Shown here: in pieces, positions 1,287 through 6,738 of the stretch
How positions within the stretch are numbered: position 1 is the first letter of the stretch
How the letters are laid out: each line of letters begins with the position of its first letter
DNA from: Acidobacteriota bacterium
GTDB taxonomy: Bacteria; Acidobacteriota; Blastocatellia; RBC074
DNA: 64,000 bases
NCBI GenBank assembly: GCA_016196035.1
Contig: JACPYM010000023.1
Coordinates: 37,078 to 101,077 of the forward strand
Direction of reading: 5' to 3'
The notes under the pieces: generated by a model
Seen by the model: only the letters and a program-made list of their open reading frames with translations
Database searches by the model: none
What the model was told of the DNA's origin: nothing
Position numbers and translations under genes: made by a program

Positions 1287-3455
1287 TCAACCGGCAGCGA
1301 ATTTTTCGCAGTAACTGACAAATTCCTGCGCCTGCTCCAACGCCGCGTTCGCGCTGAGTTCAGCGGGGCTGTCGGTTTTCAGGCTCTCGAAGCTGGCGGA
1401 CAAGGCGTGCCAGGAACCGCCGGTTTGACCGGAAAGCACGAACAGGTTTTCAAATTCCCACAAGGCTTCCAACGAAGTGAACGGGTCAACCAGCTTTTGA
1501 TAGAGCGGCACGCGGGCGGCGGCGGCGGCGGCTTCATAAGCTTCGAGCAAGGCTTGTTCGTAGTTGCCGTGTTGAATATACGCCGCCGTCTGCGCCAGCC
1601 GCGTGTGGGCTTTGTCGAAGGTGGGAACGACTTCGGCAATGGTCGTGCCAGCGCATTCGCCGCGCACGCCGGAGCGCACGGTGAAGCGCTCATTCTCATG
1701 CCCATAATCGTCATAAAACTGTGGATCGTCCTCAAAGGCCGGGATCGCTTTGTGCGGCTCAAGCGCTTCTTTCACACGCTGATCGCCGATGCGCGCGAGG
1801 AAGGCGTTGAAATCCTCGCCCGGTTGCTTTTCGGTGTCGTGCAAAGTCAGCAAGGCTTCGACGACGTTGATGGCATTGCGGGCTGGGAAGCGGCCAAAGA
1901 CTTTGGCCGCGCGCGGCTTGCCGTGATTGGCTTGGCCGCCCAGGAAAAGCAGATGCGCGGGCAGATTGTGTCCGTTCTGTGTGACGGCAGCGGCGTGAAA
2001 GCCGATGTTGGCCACGGCGTGTTGTGCGCAACCATTCGGGCAGCCGGAGATTTTGATGCGCAAGTCGCGGTGCGCTTCAAAATGCGGCGCGAGCTTGCCG
2101 TTGAAAAACGAATCGGAAATAGCTGTACCCAGCCCTTTGGCCGAGGCGATGCCCAGGCGGCAGGTGTCAGCGCCGGGGCAAGCCGTCACATCGGCGATGG
2201 TTTCGGCTCCGGCATCCGCCAGCGCAACGGTTTTGAGCGCGGCGTACAATCCCGGCAAGTCAGTCACACGCACCCAGGGCAGAAATAGATTTTGTTCAAT
2301 CGAAACGCGCAGTTCGCCAGCGCTGTATCGGCGCGCGAGGTCAGCTAATGCACGGGCGTTATCAGACGTAAGGTCACCGAACTTGGTGCGCACGTGCACG
2401 CCGCGCAGGTTTTCGACGCGATGGGCGATGACCGAATCGCGCGCCCATTGCTGATACTGCAGGTCATTCGTCAGTGGGTTCAGCACGTTGAGCGAGGTCG
2501 CAGTTTCGGCCAGCACCGGTGTGGTGGCTGCTTCCAAAAAATCTGTCAACGGCGGCAGCGGATCGAGGGCCGCACGTTCGGCATCCACCGCCGCGCGAAA
2601 CTTTTCCCAGCCCATGGATTGCACCAGAAACTTCAGGCGCGCTTTCATCCGCTGCTTGCGCTCGCCGTAGCGATCGAAGATGCGAATCACCGCCGTCGTG
2701 AAATTGAACAGCTCTTCGACCGGCAGGAAGTCGCTGTAAATGTGCGCAAGGTGCGGGCCGCTGCCCATGCCGCCGCCGACGTGCACGCGGAAGCCGCGTT
2801 GCACCTGCCCGTTCTCTTCGCGGATGACGGCGTGAAAACCCAGATCGTGAAAGGCCAGCGCGGAGTGGTCCGCGGCGCAACCTTCAAAGGCGAATTTCAT
2901 TTTGCGCCCCATGTTCTGGTTGTGTTTGTTGCGCAGCAAAAACTTAAACAACGCTTGGGCGTAGGGGTAAACGTTGAAGACTTCGTCGTGCGCAACGCCT
3001 GCGCGGTAACAGGCCGTGATGTTGCGCACGGTATTGCCGCAAGCCTCGCGCGTGGTGATCCCGACTTCGGCGAGTTCGCGCAGCAAGGCGGGCGCGTCTT
3101 CTAATTGCAAGTAATAAAGCTGGGCGTCTTCGCGCGTGGTGAAATGGATAAAACCGCTGGCATAGCGGTCGGCGGTATCGGCCAGGCGCGTCAATTGGTC
3201 GGCATTCAAATAACCGCCCGGGATTTTGATGCGTTGCATCTGCACGCCATCTTGCCGTTGGGCATAGGTACCGAACTGTAGGCGGAACTTTTGCATCTTG
3301 GTTTCACCCAGTTCACCGGCGCGGTATTTTTTGATTTGCTTTTGGTACAGCGCCAACTCTGCTTCGATGGTGGGAGAGAGCGGTTGCACAGCGAGAGGTT
3401 GGACTGCCAATGAGGGGGCGCTTGATTTTTCTGCCTTAACTGAAATCGCGTTCAT
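1287..3455 (-). CDS. Ferredoxin-dependent nitrite/sulfite reductase, siroheme type
   Basis: This 722-aa enzyme reduces sulfite or nitrite by six electrons using siroheme coupled to a 4Fe-4S cluster. Both halves of the family fold are present. The cluster/siroheme cysteines are visible as TACPGADTCRLG and GCPNGCAQH. The N-terminal half contains the expected GNTVRNIT and GGGMGSGPH segments. A helical Ala/Glu-rich tail of about 130 residues extends beyond the reductase core and resembles the HEPN-like tails of some bacterial homologues. The start is the ATG at 3455, behind CAGGAG with 4-nt spacing; longer upstream readings lack an RBS. Sulfite and nitrite activity cannot be separated from sequence alone, but the polycysteine leader upstream favours a role in sulfur assimilation. 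It stands alone, with no visible partner subunit. Confidence 0.88.
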   Translation of the reverse strand: MNAISVKAEKSSAPSLAVQPLAVQPLSPTIEAELALYQKQIKKYRAGELGETKMQKFRLQFGTYAQRQDGVQMQRIKIPGGYLNADQLTRLADTADRYASGFIHFTTREDAQLYYLQLEDAPALLRELAEVGITTREACGNTVRNITACYRAGVAHDEVFNVYPYAQALFKFLLRNKHNQNMGRKMKFAFEGCAADHSALAFHDLGFHAVIREENGQVQRGFRVHVGGGMGSGPHLAHIYSDFLPVEELFNFTTAVIRIFDRYGERKQRMKARLKFLVQSMGWEKFRAAVDAERAALDPLPPLTDFLEAATTPVLAETATSLNVLNPLTNDLQYQQWARDSVIAHRVENLRGVHVRTKFGDLTSDNARALADLARRYSAGELRVSIEQNLFLPWVRVTDLPGLYAALKTVALADAGAETIADVTACPGADTCRLGIASAKGLGTAISDSFFNGKLAPHFEAHRDLRIKISGCPNGCAQHAVANIGFHAAAVTQNGHNLPAHLLFLGGQANHGKPRAAKVFGRFPARNAINVVEALLTLHDTEKQPGEDFNAFLARIGDQRVKEALEPHKAIPAFEDDPQFYDDYGHENERFTVRSGVRGECAGTTIAEVVPTFDKAHTRLAQTAAYIQHGNYEQALLEAYEAAAAAARVPLYQKLVDPFTSLEALWEFENLFVLSGQTGGSWHALSASFESLKTDSPAELSANAALEQAQEFVSYCEKFAAG

Positions 3456-3489
3456 GATGCTCCTGAAAGTGTGATTGCCCTGCGCACAA

Positions 3490-3534
3490 AGCAAAGCGCC
3501 CCGGCTCCTGTGGTTGGAACCGGGGCGCTTTTGC
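3490..3534 (-). promoter_or_regulatory. Attenuator-like GC-rich hairpin in reductase leader
   Basis: A stem of about 15 bp is built on AGCGCCCCGG pairing with CCGGGGCGCT. It lies between the short Cys-rich reading frame and the reductase start. In the transcribed direction the right arm runs into GCTTTGCTTTG, a modest U-rich tail. The position suggests a transcription attenuator; it does not cover the RBS at about 3460. Confidence 0.5.
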
Positions 3535-3551
3535 TAAATCCGTGCGGCATC

Positions 3552-3620
3552 TCAATTCTGCGTGATGCGGCGCTTAGGCGACCAGTTCCACTTGGCTTTA
3601 GCCTTACAACAACAACACAT
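3552..3620 (-). CDS. Putative cysteine-rich leader peptide (22 aa)
   Basis: This short frame starts MCCCCKAKAK and ends RRITQN. Four consecutive TGT codons directly follow the ATG at 3620, and the stop lies 18 nt before the GC-rich hairpin at 3490-3534. The layout matches amino-acid attenuation leaders, in which ribosomes stall at the regulated amino acid. It precedes a gene of sulfur or nitrogen reduction, so cysteine would be the sensed product. No convincing Shine-Dalgarno sequence precedes the ATG; an in-frame TTG lies two codons upstream. The four TGT codons could also be a chance trinucleotide run. Confidence 0.45.
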   Translation of the reverse strand: MCCCCKAKAKWNWSPKRRITQN

Positions 3621-3723
3621 CGTCAATGCGCGGCATTTGGCGCTTGGTTGTTCGGACGTATGTGGAAAGGAAAAGTAAAGGTTCACGATCTGCCTACCGA
3701 TAAATTGAGAATTGGACTGACCG

Positions 3724-3752
3724 AAAATACTGGCGCGTCGCAGGATTGTCAA
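3724..3752 (-). promoter_or_regulatory. Sigma70-like promoter for the leader/reductase transcript
   Basis: On the minus strand, TTGACA (3752-3747), a 17-nt spacer and TATTTT (3729-3724) are seen. This would give a leader RNA of about 260 nt that includes the Cys-rich peptide and the hairpin. Confidence 0.45.
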
Positions 3753-3831
3753 AGGGGCGCGCACAAAAGGATGTTCGTCAATCTTTTCTTTGAAGTTGCG
3801 ACACAACGAATCAATAGACGGCACGGTGTCA

Positions 3832-3944
3832 GTAGCGCAACCCTGCCGAGGTTGCGCGGCTTCCGCGCTTACTTAACTGACAGTTCAACTGGCGGCTCAG
3901 GTAGAAGTGCCTGAAGCCGCGCAACCTCGGCAGGGTTGCGCTAC
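3832..3944. repeat. Large inverted repeat, 32-bp arms
   Basis: The arms 3832-3863 and 3913-3944 are perfect inverted copies (GTAGCGCAACCCTGCCGAGG and onward) around a 49-nt centre. The element is palindromic and intergenic, lying between the divergent reductase and metalloprotease genes. It has no coding capacity and looks like a dispersed REP/MITE-type element. Confidence 0.8.
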
Positions 3945-4134
3945 ACCAGCGAATGTCGCACGTCCTTCTAAGAACACCTGTTGCAACCTTAGACGTTACA
4001 CGAAATTTTGTAGGAGTTGCCATCCTTCAGCCGTTGGCGTGCTTTCCCTCTTACGCTTGTATCAAGTATGCTGCGCGCGTTCGCATGGACTTTCACTAAC
4101 AACTCTCAAACAAATTCGAAGAAGGAATTCACCT
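3945..4134. other. Metalloprotease upstream region
   Basis: This is the rest of the 679-bp gap between the divergent genes. I see no gene and no clear promoter; the RBS GAAGGA lies at its end. Confidence 0.4.
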
Positions 4135-6738
4135 ATGAAAAAGATTGCCAGGCAATGTTATGCGTTACTGCTCGGCGGGGCCATCGGCATGGCACTCGCG
4201 GGCGGCGCGGGCGTTTTGGCGCAAGACCCACCCGCAGGCGGCGGCCAGGAACGCCCGGCTGGCGCGGCGGGCGGCGGTTTCGGCCAGCAACGTGAACCGG
4301 AAATCAAACCCTATGACAAGGTCATCACTAAAGAGGCCAAATCGGATGAAGGCGTCTTCACCGTGCATCGCATCAAGGACAAGCTCTATTACGAAATCCC
4401 CAAGCAGGAACTGGGCAAGGAATTTTTGTGGGTCAGCCAGATCGCGCGCACAACGTTGGGTGTGGGCTATGGCGGCCAGGCGATGGGCAATCGCGTCGTC
4501 AAATGGGAGCGTCGCGACAATCGTGTGCTGTTGCGCAGCGTTTCGTATGAAGTGGTCGCCGACCCGAAAGAGCCGGTAGCCAAGGCCGTGCAGGCGGCCA
4601 ATAACAACGCCATCATCATGTCGTTCTTTGTCGAAGCCCTCGGCAAAGATGATGCGCCAGTGATTGAAGTGACGCGGCTTTTCACGACTGAAGTCACCGA
4701 ATTCAACGCGAAAGCACGCTTGCGCGCGCGCGTGTTCGACGCCTCCCGTTCATTCCTCGAACGCACCGTTTCCTTCCCCACCAACATCGAGATCGAAGCG
4801 ACGCATACGTTCAGCAATCCAGCCGATGCCACACCCGCAGGCCCCGCCGCGCCGCCCAACCCCTTTCAAGGCGCAGGCATGGGCACGGGCAGCGCTTCGG
4901 TGGTGATGCATTACTCGATGGTCAAACTGCCTGAGAAGCCGATGCAGCCACGCCTGTTCGATGAGCGCGTCGGCTACTTCACGACACGGCAGATGGATTA
5001 CAGCAAAGACGAACATCGTGCGCCGCAACGCACCTTCATTACGCGCTGGCGTTTGGAAAAGAAAGACCCAAGCCTAGCGTTATCAGAACCAGTTAAACCG
5101 ATCATCTATTACATTGACCCGGCCACGCCGACGAAATGGGTTCCCTACTTGAAAAAAGGCATCGAGGATTGGCAACCGGCCTTTGAAGAAGCCGGATTCA
5201 AACGCGCCATCATCGCAATGGAGGCACCCAAAGATGATCCCGATTGGAGCCCTGAAGATGCGCGTTACTCGGTGATTCGCTGGCTGCCGTCCACGATTGA
5301 AAACGCTTCAGGGCCGCACATTCACGACCCGCGCACGGGCGAGATTTTGGAATCGGACATCCAGTTCTATCACAACGTGATGAACCTGGCGCGCGACTGG
5401 TACTTCACGCAGGTTGGCCCACTCGATCCGCGCGCGCAGAAACTTCCCTTCCCGGATGACCTGATGGGCGAGTTGATCCGTTATGTCGTCGCGCACGAAG
5501 TCGGGCACACGCTCGGGTTTCAACACAATATGAAAGCCAGTTCGCTGTATCCAATTGAAAAAGTCCACGACCGCGAATGGGTCAAGAAAATGGGCCACAC
5601 GCCGACGTTGATGGATTACTCCCGCTTCAATTATGTCGCGCAACCCGAAGACAAAATTGCCGTCGAAGACCTGATCCCCAAAATCGGGCCGTATGACAAA
5701 TGGGCGACGATGTGGGGTTACAAACCCATCCCCGAAGCCGGTTCCGCCGACGCCGAGAAAAAGACGCTGGATCAATGGGCGTGTGCGCAAGACAGTACGC
5801 CCTGGCTGCGTTTCTCGACAGCTAAATCGCGCGGTGCCGACCCAGGCGAAAATACCGAAGCAGTGGGCGATGCCGACGCCGTCAAAGCCACTGAATTCGG
5901 CGTGAAGAATCTGAAGCGCGTGGCGAATATGCTGCTGGCCGCTTCTTCGACTGAAACGGGCGAACCATACGATGAGCTGGATGAATTGTATGGCCGGATG
6001 CTCGGCCAATGGCGGTTGGAGATGGGACACGTCACCCAGTTAGTGGGCGGGTTCTGGTCACAGCAAAAACACATCGGTCAGCAAGGTGTGTTGTTCACGC
6101 CAGTGCCCAAAGAGAAACAAGCCGAAGCCGTGCGTTTCCTGAATGACAATGCTTTCACCACGCCAATGTGGATGGTCAAGCCTGAAATTTTGCGGCGCAT
6201 TGAAACCAACGGCGTCACAGATCGCCTCAAGACCGCACAGCAGGGCTTACTCAATCAATTACTGAGTTCTGCGCGCTTTGCCCGGTTAACCGAGCAAGAG
6301 GCGTTGGACGGTAACAAGGCTTATCGCGCTGTTGATATGCTGGCCGATCTGCGCAAAGGCGTGTGGAGCGAGTTGAACGGCACAGGCGCGTTGAAAGTTG
6401 AGGTGTTCCGCCGCAATTTGCAACGCACCTACCTGGAAGTCTTGGCCGAAAAACTAAATGGTCGTAACGCGGTGACCGACGAACAACGCCCGCTCATTCG
6501 CGGTGAGTTGCGCGCGCTAAGCGCCGAAGTTACACGGGCCATCCCCCGTGCCACCGAACGCGCGACACGCGCGCATTTGGAAGACGCGCGTGATCAAATT
6601 GCCAAAATTCTCGATCCCAAATTTGCCCAGCCAGCGCCAACTACGCCGGCCTTGGGTGGATTTGGGCGCGGCGGGTTTGAGGATTGGAACGACCTGCAAT
6701 GCTGGCCGGATTATTCAATTCGTAATCCGCGTCAGTAA
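4135..6738 (+). CDS. Secreted zinc metalloprotease (DUF5117/DUF5118 type)
   Basis: This 867-aa exported peptidase opens with [15 protein letters not shown], then a hydrophobic core and a cleavage region near VLAQD. A low-complexity Gly/Gln segment follows. A DUF5118 region ([20 protein letters not shown]) and a DUF5117 region precede a metzincin-type catalytic domain. The zinc-binding motif [11 protein letters not shown] is at residues 454-464. The length fits the family, which is common in Acidobacteriota and Bacteroidota. The start at 4135 has GAAGGA 8 nt upstream and begins the signal peptide; longer upstream readings do not fit. Substrates are unknown. It is probably monocistronic, bounded by the hairpin at 6758. 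Confidence 0.85.

Follow-up and report, generated by a model that had tools for sequence, protein, structure and literature searches.

In a 64,000-nucleotide (nt) stretch of Acidobacteriota DNA (contig JACPYM010000023.1, positions 37,078 to 101,077; hereafter the window), a minus-strand gene for a siroheme-type reductase is preceded by a short open reading frame containing a run of four cysteine codons and, behind that frame, by a terminator-like hairpin. This arrangement is very probably a cysteine-sensing transcription attenuator placed before a predicted sulfite reductase. Its parts stand in a fixed order and spacing that recur upstream of reductase orthologues in related genomes, and are listed here in window coordinates, from the promoter to the gene.

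3747–3752, minus strand: −35 box TTGACA, read from the sequence.
3724–3729, minus strand: −10 box TATTTT behind a 17-nt spacer, read from the sequence.
3552–3686, minus strand: leader frame, likely of 44 codons from GTG 3686 onward, VNLYFSFPHTSEQPSAKCRALTMCCCCKAKAKWNWSPKRRITQN; the start is chosen from a Shine-Dalgarno (SD)-like AGG and the leader lengths of relatives.
3606–3617, minus strand: four consecutive TGT (Cys) codons directly after ATG 3620, the predicted sensor.
3582–3589, minus strand: segment 2, GGAACTGG, the predicted antiterminator strand, 16 nt past the last Cys codon, from complementarity in aligned relatives.
3516–3531, minus strand: segment 3, AAAGCGCCCCGGTTCC, 5′ arm of the putative terminator, which could instead pair with segment 2, from folding and alignment.
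3493–3508, minus strand: segment 4, GGAGCCGGGGCGCTTT, 3′ arm of the putative terminator, from folding, alignment and shuffles.
3481–3492, minus strand: U-rich tail, GCTTTGTGCGCA, weak, from the sequence.
3460–3464, minus strand: AGGAG, the reductase SD sequence, lying clear of the hairpin, from the sequence.
1287–3455, minus strand: siroheme-type reductase of 722 amino acids, predicted to be an assimilatory sulfite reductase from Pfam matches, gene clusters of relatives and an R-K-M-K motif.

An earlier note on this DNA had described a TTGACA-17-TATTTT promoter, a 22-codon frame with four Cys codons, a GC-rich hairpin with a U-rich tail and a ribosome-binding site, and had recognized in them the order of an amino-acid attenuator. 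The promoter sequence is indeed present at 3752–3724 of the minus strand, and AGGAG (3464–3460) lies ahead of the reductase ATG at 3455. The Cys run and its frame are likewise there, with ATG 3620 and four TGT codons (3617–3606) opening a 22-codon frame, MCCCCKAKAKWNWSPKRRITQN, whose stop ends at 3552, but its start was perhaps placed too far downstream. The frame stays open 5′ of ATG 3620 as far as 3824, and the predicted −10 box lies ~38 nt 5′ of the in-frame GTG 3686 and ~104 nt 5′ of ATG 3620. A leader of 44 codons from GTG 3686 appears likelier than one of 22, because inspection by eye finds an SD-like AGG ahead of the GTG and none ahead of the ATG, and because leaders in 10 relatives span 32–53 codons (start codons picked by script). 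TTGACA also stands 16–18 nt ahead of a −10-like box in eight relatives (L016, L017, L005, L018, L021, L022, L032 and L040), the TATTTT box and 17-nt spacing being identical in the first three of these; the −35 box reads TTGACT in L023 and L026, and no convincing −35 box was found upstream in L025 or L020. Rfam returned no match in the window, the four matches within 3400–3850 all falling below the gathering score.

Recurrence of the Cys-rich leader was evaluated by scanning upstream of the reductase matches in 45 loci, some of them duplicates. Nineteen orthologues were retained as distinct loci with at least 50% identity and DNA present 5′ of the gene, leaving out duplicates (L003, L004, L006, L008, L090, L091) and loci truncated on their 5′ side (L007/L019, L009/L033, L031, L034). 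Metagenome-assembled genomes of Acidobacteria and Blastocatellia are the nearest relatives of the window that bear a name. A fixed filter, which asked for a short frame holding 4 or more Cys per 8 codons no more than 450 nt upstream, was passed by 10 of the 19 orthologues. The controls gave 2 of 975 for random windows taken from these loci, 7 of 1,484 for windows of the given DNA, and 1 of 67 for upstream regions of other genes, this last control covering 17 of the 19 loci (L001 and L005 left out). The single gene passing in that control encodes a 3′-phosphoadenosine 5′-phosphosulfate (PAPS) reductase (L030). The corresponding Fisher p values (2e-17, 1e-16 and 3e-7, respectively) are optimistic because the orthologues share kinship. 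With a looser filter, requiring 3 Cys in 6 codons, 11 of 19 orthologues passed, along with 50 of 972 random windows and 107 of 1,471 windows of the given DNA. In total, 13 of the 19 orthologues possess a Cys-rich leader, counting one recovered by the looser filter (L026) and two lying further upstream (L020, L043). For comparison, Cys accounts for 1.0% of codons across 31 long frames of the window.

Close orthologues carry the runs MCCCC, MCCCC, VCCCCC and MCCCCC, within the leaders MCCCCPAKTDENRLPADITG (L003/L016), MCCCCPAKSKGNRLPASIDIAG (L017), CMMVCCCCCK (L005) and MCCCCCLPKIQWNRSSLPAIIAT (L018). More distant leaders intersperse other residues, as in CVCRCTC (L021), CACICTC (L022), CLCPCCC (L032), CCCMC (L023) and CRCMC (L026), and a Balneolaceae metagenome-assembled genome contributes CCCIMC (L025). 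The Cys run that the earlier note had proposed to look for in relatives is thus conserved in four close orthologues, and 10 of 19 have a Cys-rich frame at the fixed filter. A covariance model, R1, run over 347 genomes of the phylum matched 25 of them at E ≤0.01, and scores above 90 bits were confined to the four known reductase loci. Among nine loci inspected from the weaker matches, eight had no Cys cluster, and one (L158) has a leader of Met and Cys codons with a terminator.

Behind the leader frame, positions 3531–3493 fold into a hairpin of 16 base pairs (one G-U) at −32.5 kcal/mol, and none of 200 shuffles of the stretch gave an equally good terminator-like site. The GC-rich hairpin of the earlier note therefore holds up, and its U-rich tail exists but is weak, with 4 T in 9. 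A terminator-like hairpin follows all 13 leaders chosen for this analysis (the window and 12 further loci), and shuffling gave a site as good in 0 of 200 cases for 12 of them and in 1 of 200 for L020. Spacing is also regular: in 11 of 13 loci the terminator 5′ arm is 67–79 nt away from the final codon of the Cys cluster and 20–34 nt away from the leader stop; the exceptions in the former distance are L020 (151 nt) and L040 (33 nt). We aligned the helices of nine loci, leaving aside L023 and L026 for their different terminator sequence and L020 and L040 for their different spacing. The terminator helix is paired in 93.1% of 144 cells and has 10 cells changed on both sides, values that 0 of 500 shuffles reach in either case. 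Changes on both sides fall on 4 of the 16 pairs, a count matched by 47 of 500 shuffles; compensatory changes in the hairpin, the other feature that the earlier note had wanted sought in relatives, are accordingly present among the nine sequences.

The same alignment revealed a leader segment of the type GGAACYGG that is complementary to the terminator 5′ arm, CCGGTTYC, with 95.8% of 72 cells paired over the nine sequences. It begins 8–19 nt past the last Cys codon in all nine, the segment having been chosen for its complementarity, and this offset corresponds to the stretch that a ribosome stalled on Cys codons would leave free. Antiterminator columns 21/98 and 27/92 have changed on both sides. 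Column 98 covaries with both of its alternative partners, 21 and 109, as C against G and T against A, with a G-U pair in L005. We therefore predict a trp-type antiterminator, for which conserved complementarity at a conserved offset speaks more than covariation does and for which statistical support is modest. The model of the earlier note had no antiterminator, and the leader segment able to pair with the terminator arm was overlooked there. Its order of parts is nonetheless borne out by the same order and spacing in relatives.

From this layout we infer where transcription starts, and that the leader is translated, that transcription terminates and that the output responds to cysteine. RNA polymerase would start at the TTGACA/TATTTT promoter, with a ribosome following on the leader. 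When charged tRNA-Cys is ample, the ribosome would pass the Cys codons and cover segment 2 (GGAACUGG), so that segments 3 and 4 could pair and transcription would end ahead of the reductase. When charged tRNA-Cys is scarce, the ribosome would stall at the Cys codons and leave segment 2 free to form an antiterminator with segment 3 (CCGGUUCC), allowing read-through into the reductase. Because the arrangement recurs before the same gene in relatives, sulfur assimilation is likely switched on when ribosomes stall for cysteine.

Several observations weigh against this reading. The U tract of the window is poor, with 4 T in its first 9 nt, and ranks among the weakest of the set, as do those of L005 and L018. 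Six of the 19 orthologues (L024, L027, L028, L029, L030, L035) have no leader near the reductase; three of these are from Omnitrophota, L024 sits behind sat-cysC, and the leader of L030 precedes cysH. One locus, L043, has a Cys-rich frame with no terminator-like site behind it, and L023, whose terminator is of another sequence, has no convincing antiterminator. The antiterminator's paired percentage is matched by 24 of 500 shuffles, and 258 of 500 reach its count of compensated pairs. Sliding the segment by −1 gives a slightly higher covariation score (0.299 versus 0.264), though with 72.2% rather than 95.8% of cells paired. Compared with dinucleotide-shuffled leaders, the antiterminator duplex energy is not significant at single loci (p 0.05–0.95), and the combined p values are 0.075 for 13 loci, 0.044 for 11 and 0.14 for 8 thinned for relatedness, in a test that is too weak to prove the antiterminator because GC-rich arms also pair well with shuffled sequence.

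The reductase matches Pfam PF01077 and PF03460 (NIR_SIR) above cut-off and contains the Cys motif for siroheme and the 4Fe-4S cluster, whereas the NCBIfam equivalogs CysI, Sir, NirA and NirB all score below cut-off. That the attenuator is real and serves an assimilatory nitrite reductase would agree with the best NCBIfam match, which is to the NirA family (259.9 bits versus a cut-off of 523), and with the name carried by the best-scoring solved chains (3b0l, E 3.4e-37). Gene neighborhoods point the other way. The genes behind the reductase encode CbiX/TP_methylase, PAPS reductase (CysH), ATP sulfurylase (Sat) and adenosine 5′-phosphosulfate kinase in L020 and L023, CbiX/TP_methylase, PAPS reductase and ATP sulfurylase in L026, and CbiX/TP_methylase and PAPS reductase in L027; in L024 the reductase lies behind Sat and CysC, and the gene order of L034 resembles that of L023 by sequence likeness. 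Furthermore, all 19 orthologues contain R-K-x-K, which reads R-K-M-K in the window and aligns with R-K-W-K of chain 3vlx, whereas other chains of that enzyme (e.g. 3b0g) have R-K-W-N. We take the K-x-K residue to separate sulfite from nitrite reductases, and 3vlx is presumably a mutant. The window reductase is also the sole full-length match in its own genome. Overall, the sat/cysC/cysH clusters of relatives and the K-x-K motif indicate an assimilatory sulfite reductase, as the earlier note had supposed, and a nitrite reductase under this attenuator is very unlikely.

Control at the level of translation, in which a stalled ribosome refolds the RNA and frees the reductase SD while the hairpin is no terminator, has precedent in mycobacterial polycysteine short frames described as acting on downstream translation (excerpts of PMC9031893 and PMC13236596). 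It would also suit the weak U tract of the window and the sat and peroxiredoxin-cysK leaders of the same genome, introduced below, which lack convincing intrinsic terminators. In all 11 loci compared, however, the reductase start lies 18–69 nt past the stem; an SD at the usual place therefore falls outside the stem, which argues for transcriptional control, and U tracts are better in most relatives than in the window. We regard a translational mechanism at the reductase as unlikely. A sensor in which the Cys-rich peptide itself detects copper, another metal or thiol oxidation through its side chains, rather than tRNA-Cys charging, is highly improbable: clustered Cys residues can bind metals and a copper-responsive upstream frame exists in Bordetella, but the Cys spacing varies freely (CCCC, CVCRCTC, CACICTC, CLCPCCC, CRCMC), as fits codon counting and not a metal site, and the downstream genes belong to sulfate assimilation in several lineages. 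Lastly, TGY runs are common in this genome, where 230 exact TGYTGYTGYTGY sites on both strands compare with 106 for the reversed control, and a TGT repeat could in principle lie next to a terminator-like hairpin by chance; recurrence before orthologues at fixed spacing in diverged sequence already contradicts such a coincidence, to which we assign almost no probability. A cysteine-sensing transcription attenuator thus remains the preferred reading.

The window's own genome holds two further leaders of this kind. One (L112; G000:C99, 4150–4311 of the reversed locus) is a poly-Cys leader, ...SSLNTCCCCCRCCC, that ends in CCCCCRCCC and precedes sat-cysC-cysH (assigned by Pfam). A poly-Cys leader stands before sat in all six genomes of the family with DNA there (G000, G004, G005, G006, G009, G010), the count leaving out G007 and G008, whose contigs end at this point. 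Outside the family, none of 24 sat loci of the class reached 4 Cys in 8 codons in the upstream DNA scanned, which measured 800 nt at most, less in 8 loci and no more than 2 nt in L212; in these genomes, sat is possibly an internal operon gene. The other (L122; G000:C84), MLQSFQSICCCSRTETCTCCCR, lies ~50 nt upstream of a gene for a 1-Cys peroxiredoxin, behind which comes cysK, and similar leaders precede peroxiredoxin-cysK in L123, L126 and L127, with the peroxiredoxin identified by Pfam in L122, L123 and L127. A small stem (GCCGG/CCGGC, GTCGG/CCGAC) across the stop codon of these peroxiredoxin-cysK leaders was seen by eye.

Terminators were sought behind both groups: four of the six sat leaders have none and two have poor candidates, and none was found behind the four peroxiredoxin-cysK leaders. 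The same cysteine signal therefore probably acts in another way at these sites. In L121, L125 and L129, inspection by eye places the cysK start within a Cys-rich frame of a different register (NCCYATDTRCCC, TCCYEYDKPCCCCR and NCYATIDTRCCCCC), so that the leader and the gene possibly under its control overlap. Among the other 15 cysK-family loci, three pass the looser filter at scattered distances, and three of four cysE upstream regions pass it with no consistent leader. Two isolated frames were also seen: in L010 (G003, same genus), one ending in CCCCCMCCRCC precedes a different NirA-like reductase (31% identity) with no terminator behind it, and in L120 (G007:C110, reversed locus 602–748) a CCCCCCMC frame lies downstream of a sat fragment, just ahead of another gene.

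To extend the survey to other lineages, both strands of 44 loci brought in by the reductase were scanned for at least 4 Cys in 8 codons; because the loci were chosen for holding the reductase, the counts do not represent a genome-wide rate. Twenty-two Cys-rich short frames were found, of which 10 precede the reductase, five precede PAPS reductase (cysH) genes (L030, L041, L042, L046, L048), three precede genes resembling sulfur genes (NAD_binding_7 in L036, PALP in L039 and a cysN-like gene, by sequence, in L051), and four lie elsewhere (L031, L038, L057 and one in L043). A Chloroflexi locus, L040, has a weaker cluster, VCCCGP, before its reductase. Terminators follow the Cys-rich leaders of L030, L036, L039, L040 and L046, placing terminator-bearing Cys leaders in Gemmatimonadetes, Chloroflexi, Deltaproteobacteria and other records. 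No terminator was found behind the leaders SCTCCCCC and SCTCCCWC that precede cysH in the deltaproteobacterial loci L041, L042 and L048 (about 4100–4336). There, CCTCCGG/CCGGAGG pairing around the SD, seen by eye, stands in place of a terminator and suggests translational control.

In the metY-like loci of one Acidobacteriota family (that of G181; L177–L187), a leader of Met and Cys codons (e.g. TMAMCMCM) is present in 9 of 14, and a terminator in eight of these nine versus none of the five without such a leader. In L187 a terminator arm appears, by eye, complementary to a leader segment (CCGTGGGT / ACCCACGG). We lean, by a small measure, towards the view that Cys-codon leaders followed by intrinsic terminators constitute a hitherto undescribed switch for sulfur starvation in Acidobacteriota, Balneolaceae, Gemmatimonadota, Chloroflexi and Deltaproteobacteria, with a Met/Cys version at metY in another Acidobacteriota family. 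On this view the same Cys-codon sensor may have two output modes in a single genome, working through a terminator at the sulfite reductase and in terminator-less form at sat-cysC-cysH and peroxiredoxin-cysK.

Attenuators of the trp and his type combine a leader rich in the regulatory codon, a terminator, a mutually exclusive antiterminator and a biosynthetic gene. The window shares this layout, with its antiterminator as a candidate, and the likeness is one of layout; it differs in that the regulatory codon is Cys and the target a siroheme reductase. A trp attenuator of actinobacteria is covered in the excerpted text of PMC1262725, which also describes Cys-run leaders before actinobacterial cys operons with no conserved terminators. 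The earlier note's statement that polycysteine leaders are known in mycobacteria agrees with excerpts of PMC9031893 and PMC13236596, where the leaderless short frames of Canestrari et al. (2020) are described as attenuating at translation, and with those of PMC9094748; such frames stand before cysteine-pathway genes. The window resembles them in carrying consecutive Cys codons within a short frame upstream of a predicted cysteine-pathway gene. Unlike them, as far as the excerpts of PMC1262725 (no terminator) and PMC9031893 (translational) go, it has a terminator-like hairpin, a candidate antiterminator and a promoter sequence upstream of the frame.

A further close counterpart is uORFC-8-2 before cysS of Rhodobacterales, for which excerpts of PMC8632094 give two Cys codons, a predicted terminator and a proposal of tRNA-Cys attenuation. 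Both systems have Cys codons in a leader frame and a predicted intrinsic terminator. By the description excerpted from PMC8632094, they differ in that uORFC-8-2 has two tandem Cys codons, usually at positions 14–15, precedes cysS and is reported only from this alphaproteobacterial order, whereas the window has four in tandem before a reductase. The earlier note knew of no Cys leader described for Acidobacteriota, which fits the open-access titles listed by literature searches, among which none pointed to such a leader in Acidobacteriota, the sole phylum searched by name.

The proposed leader offers a concrete sensor, signal and target for a predicted sulfite reductase, and places a divergent siroheme reductase, tentatively, on the side of sulfite. 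It also links three operons of one genome through the same kind of leader, and the combination of a Cys cluster, ~75 nt and a terminator provides a simple sequence rule for finding others. Apart from these elements, the window contains a perfect 32-nt inverted repeat, GTAGCGCAACCCTGCCGAGGTTGCGCGGCTTC, at 3832–3863 and 3913–3944, its arms 49 nt apart, which lies between the reductase promoter and a divergent DUF5117/DUF4953 metalloprotease-like gene (3907–6738, plus strand, a mechanically called frame).

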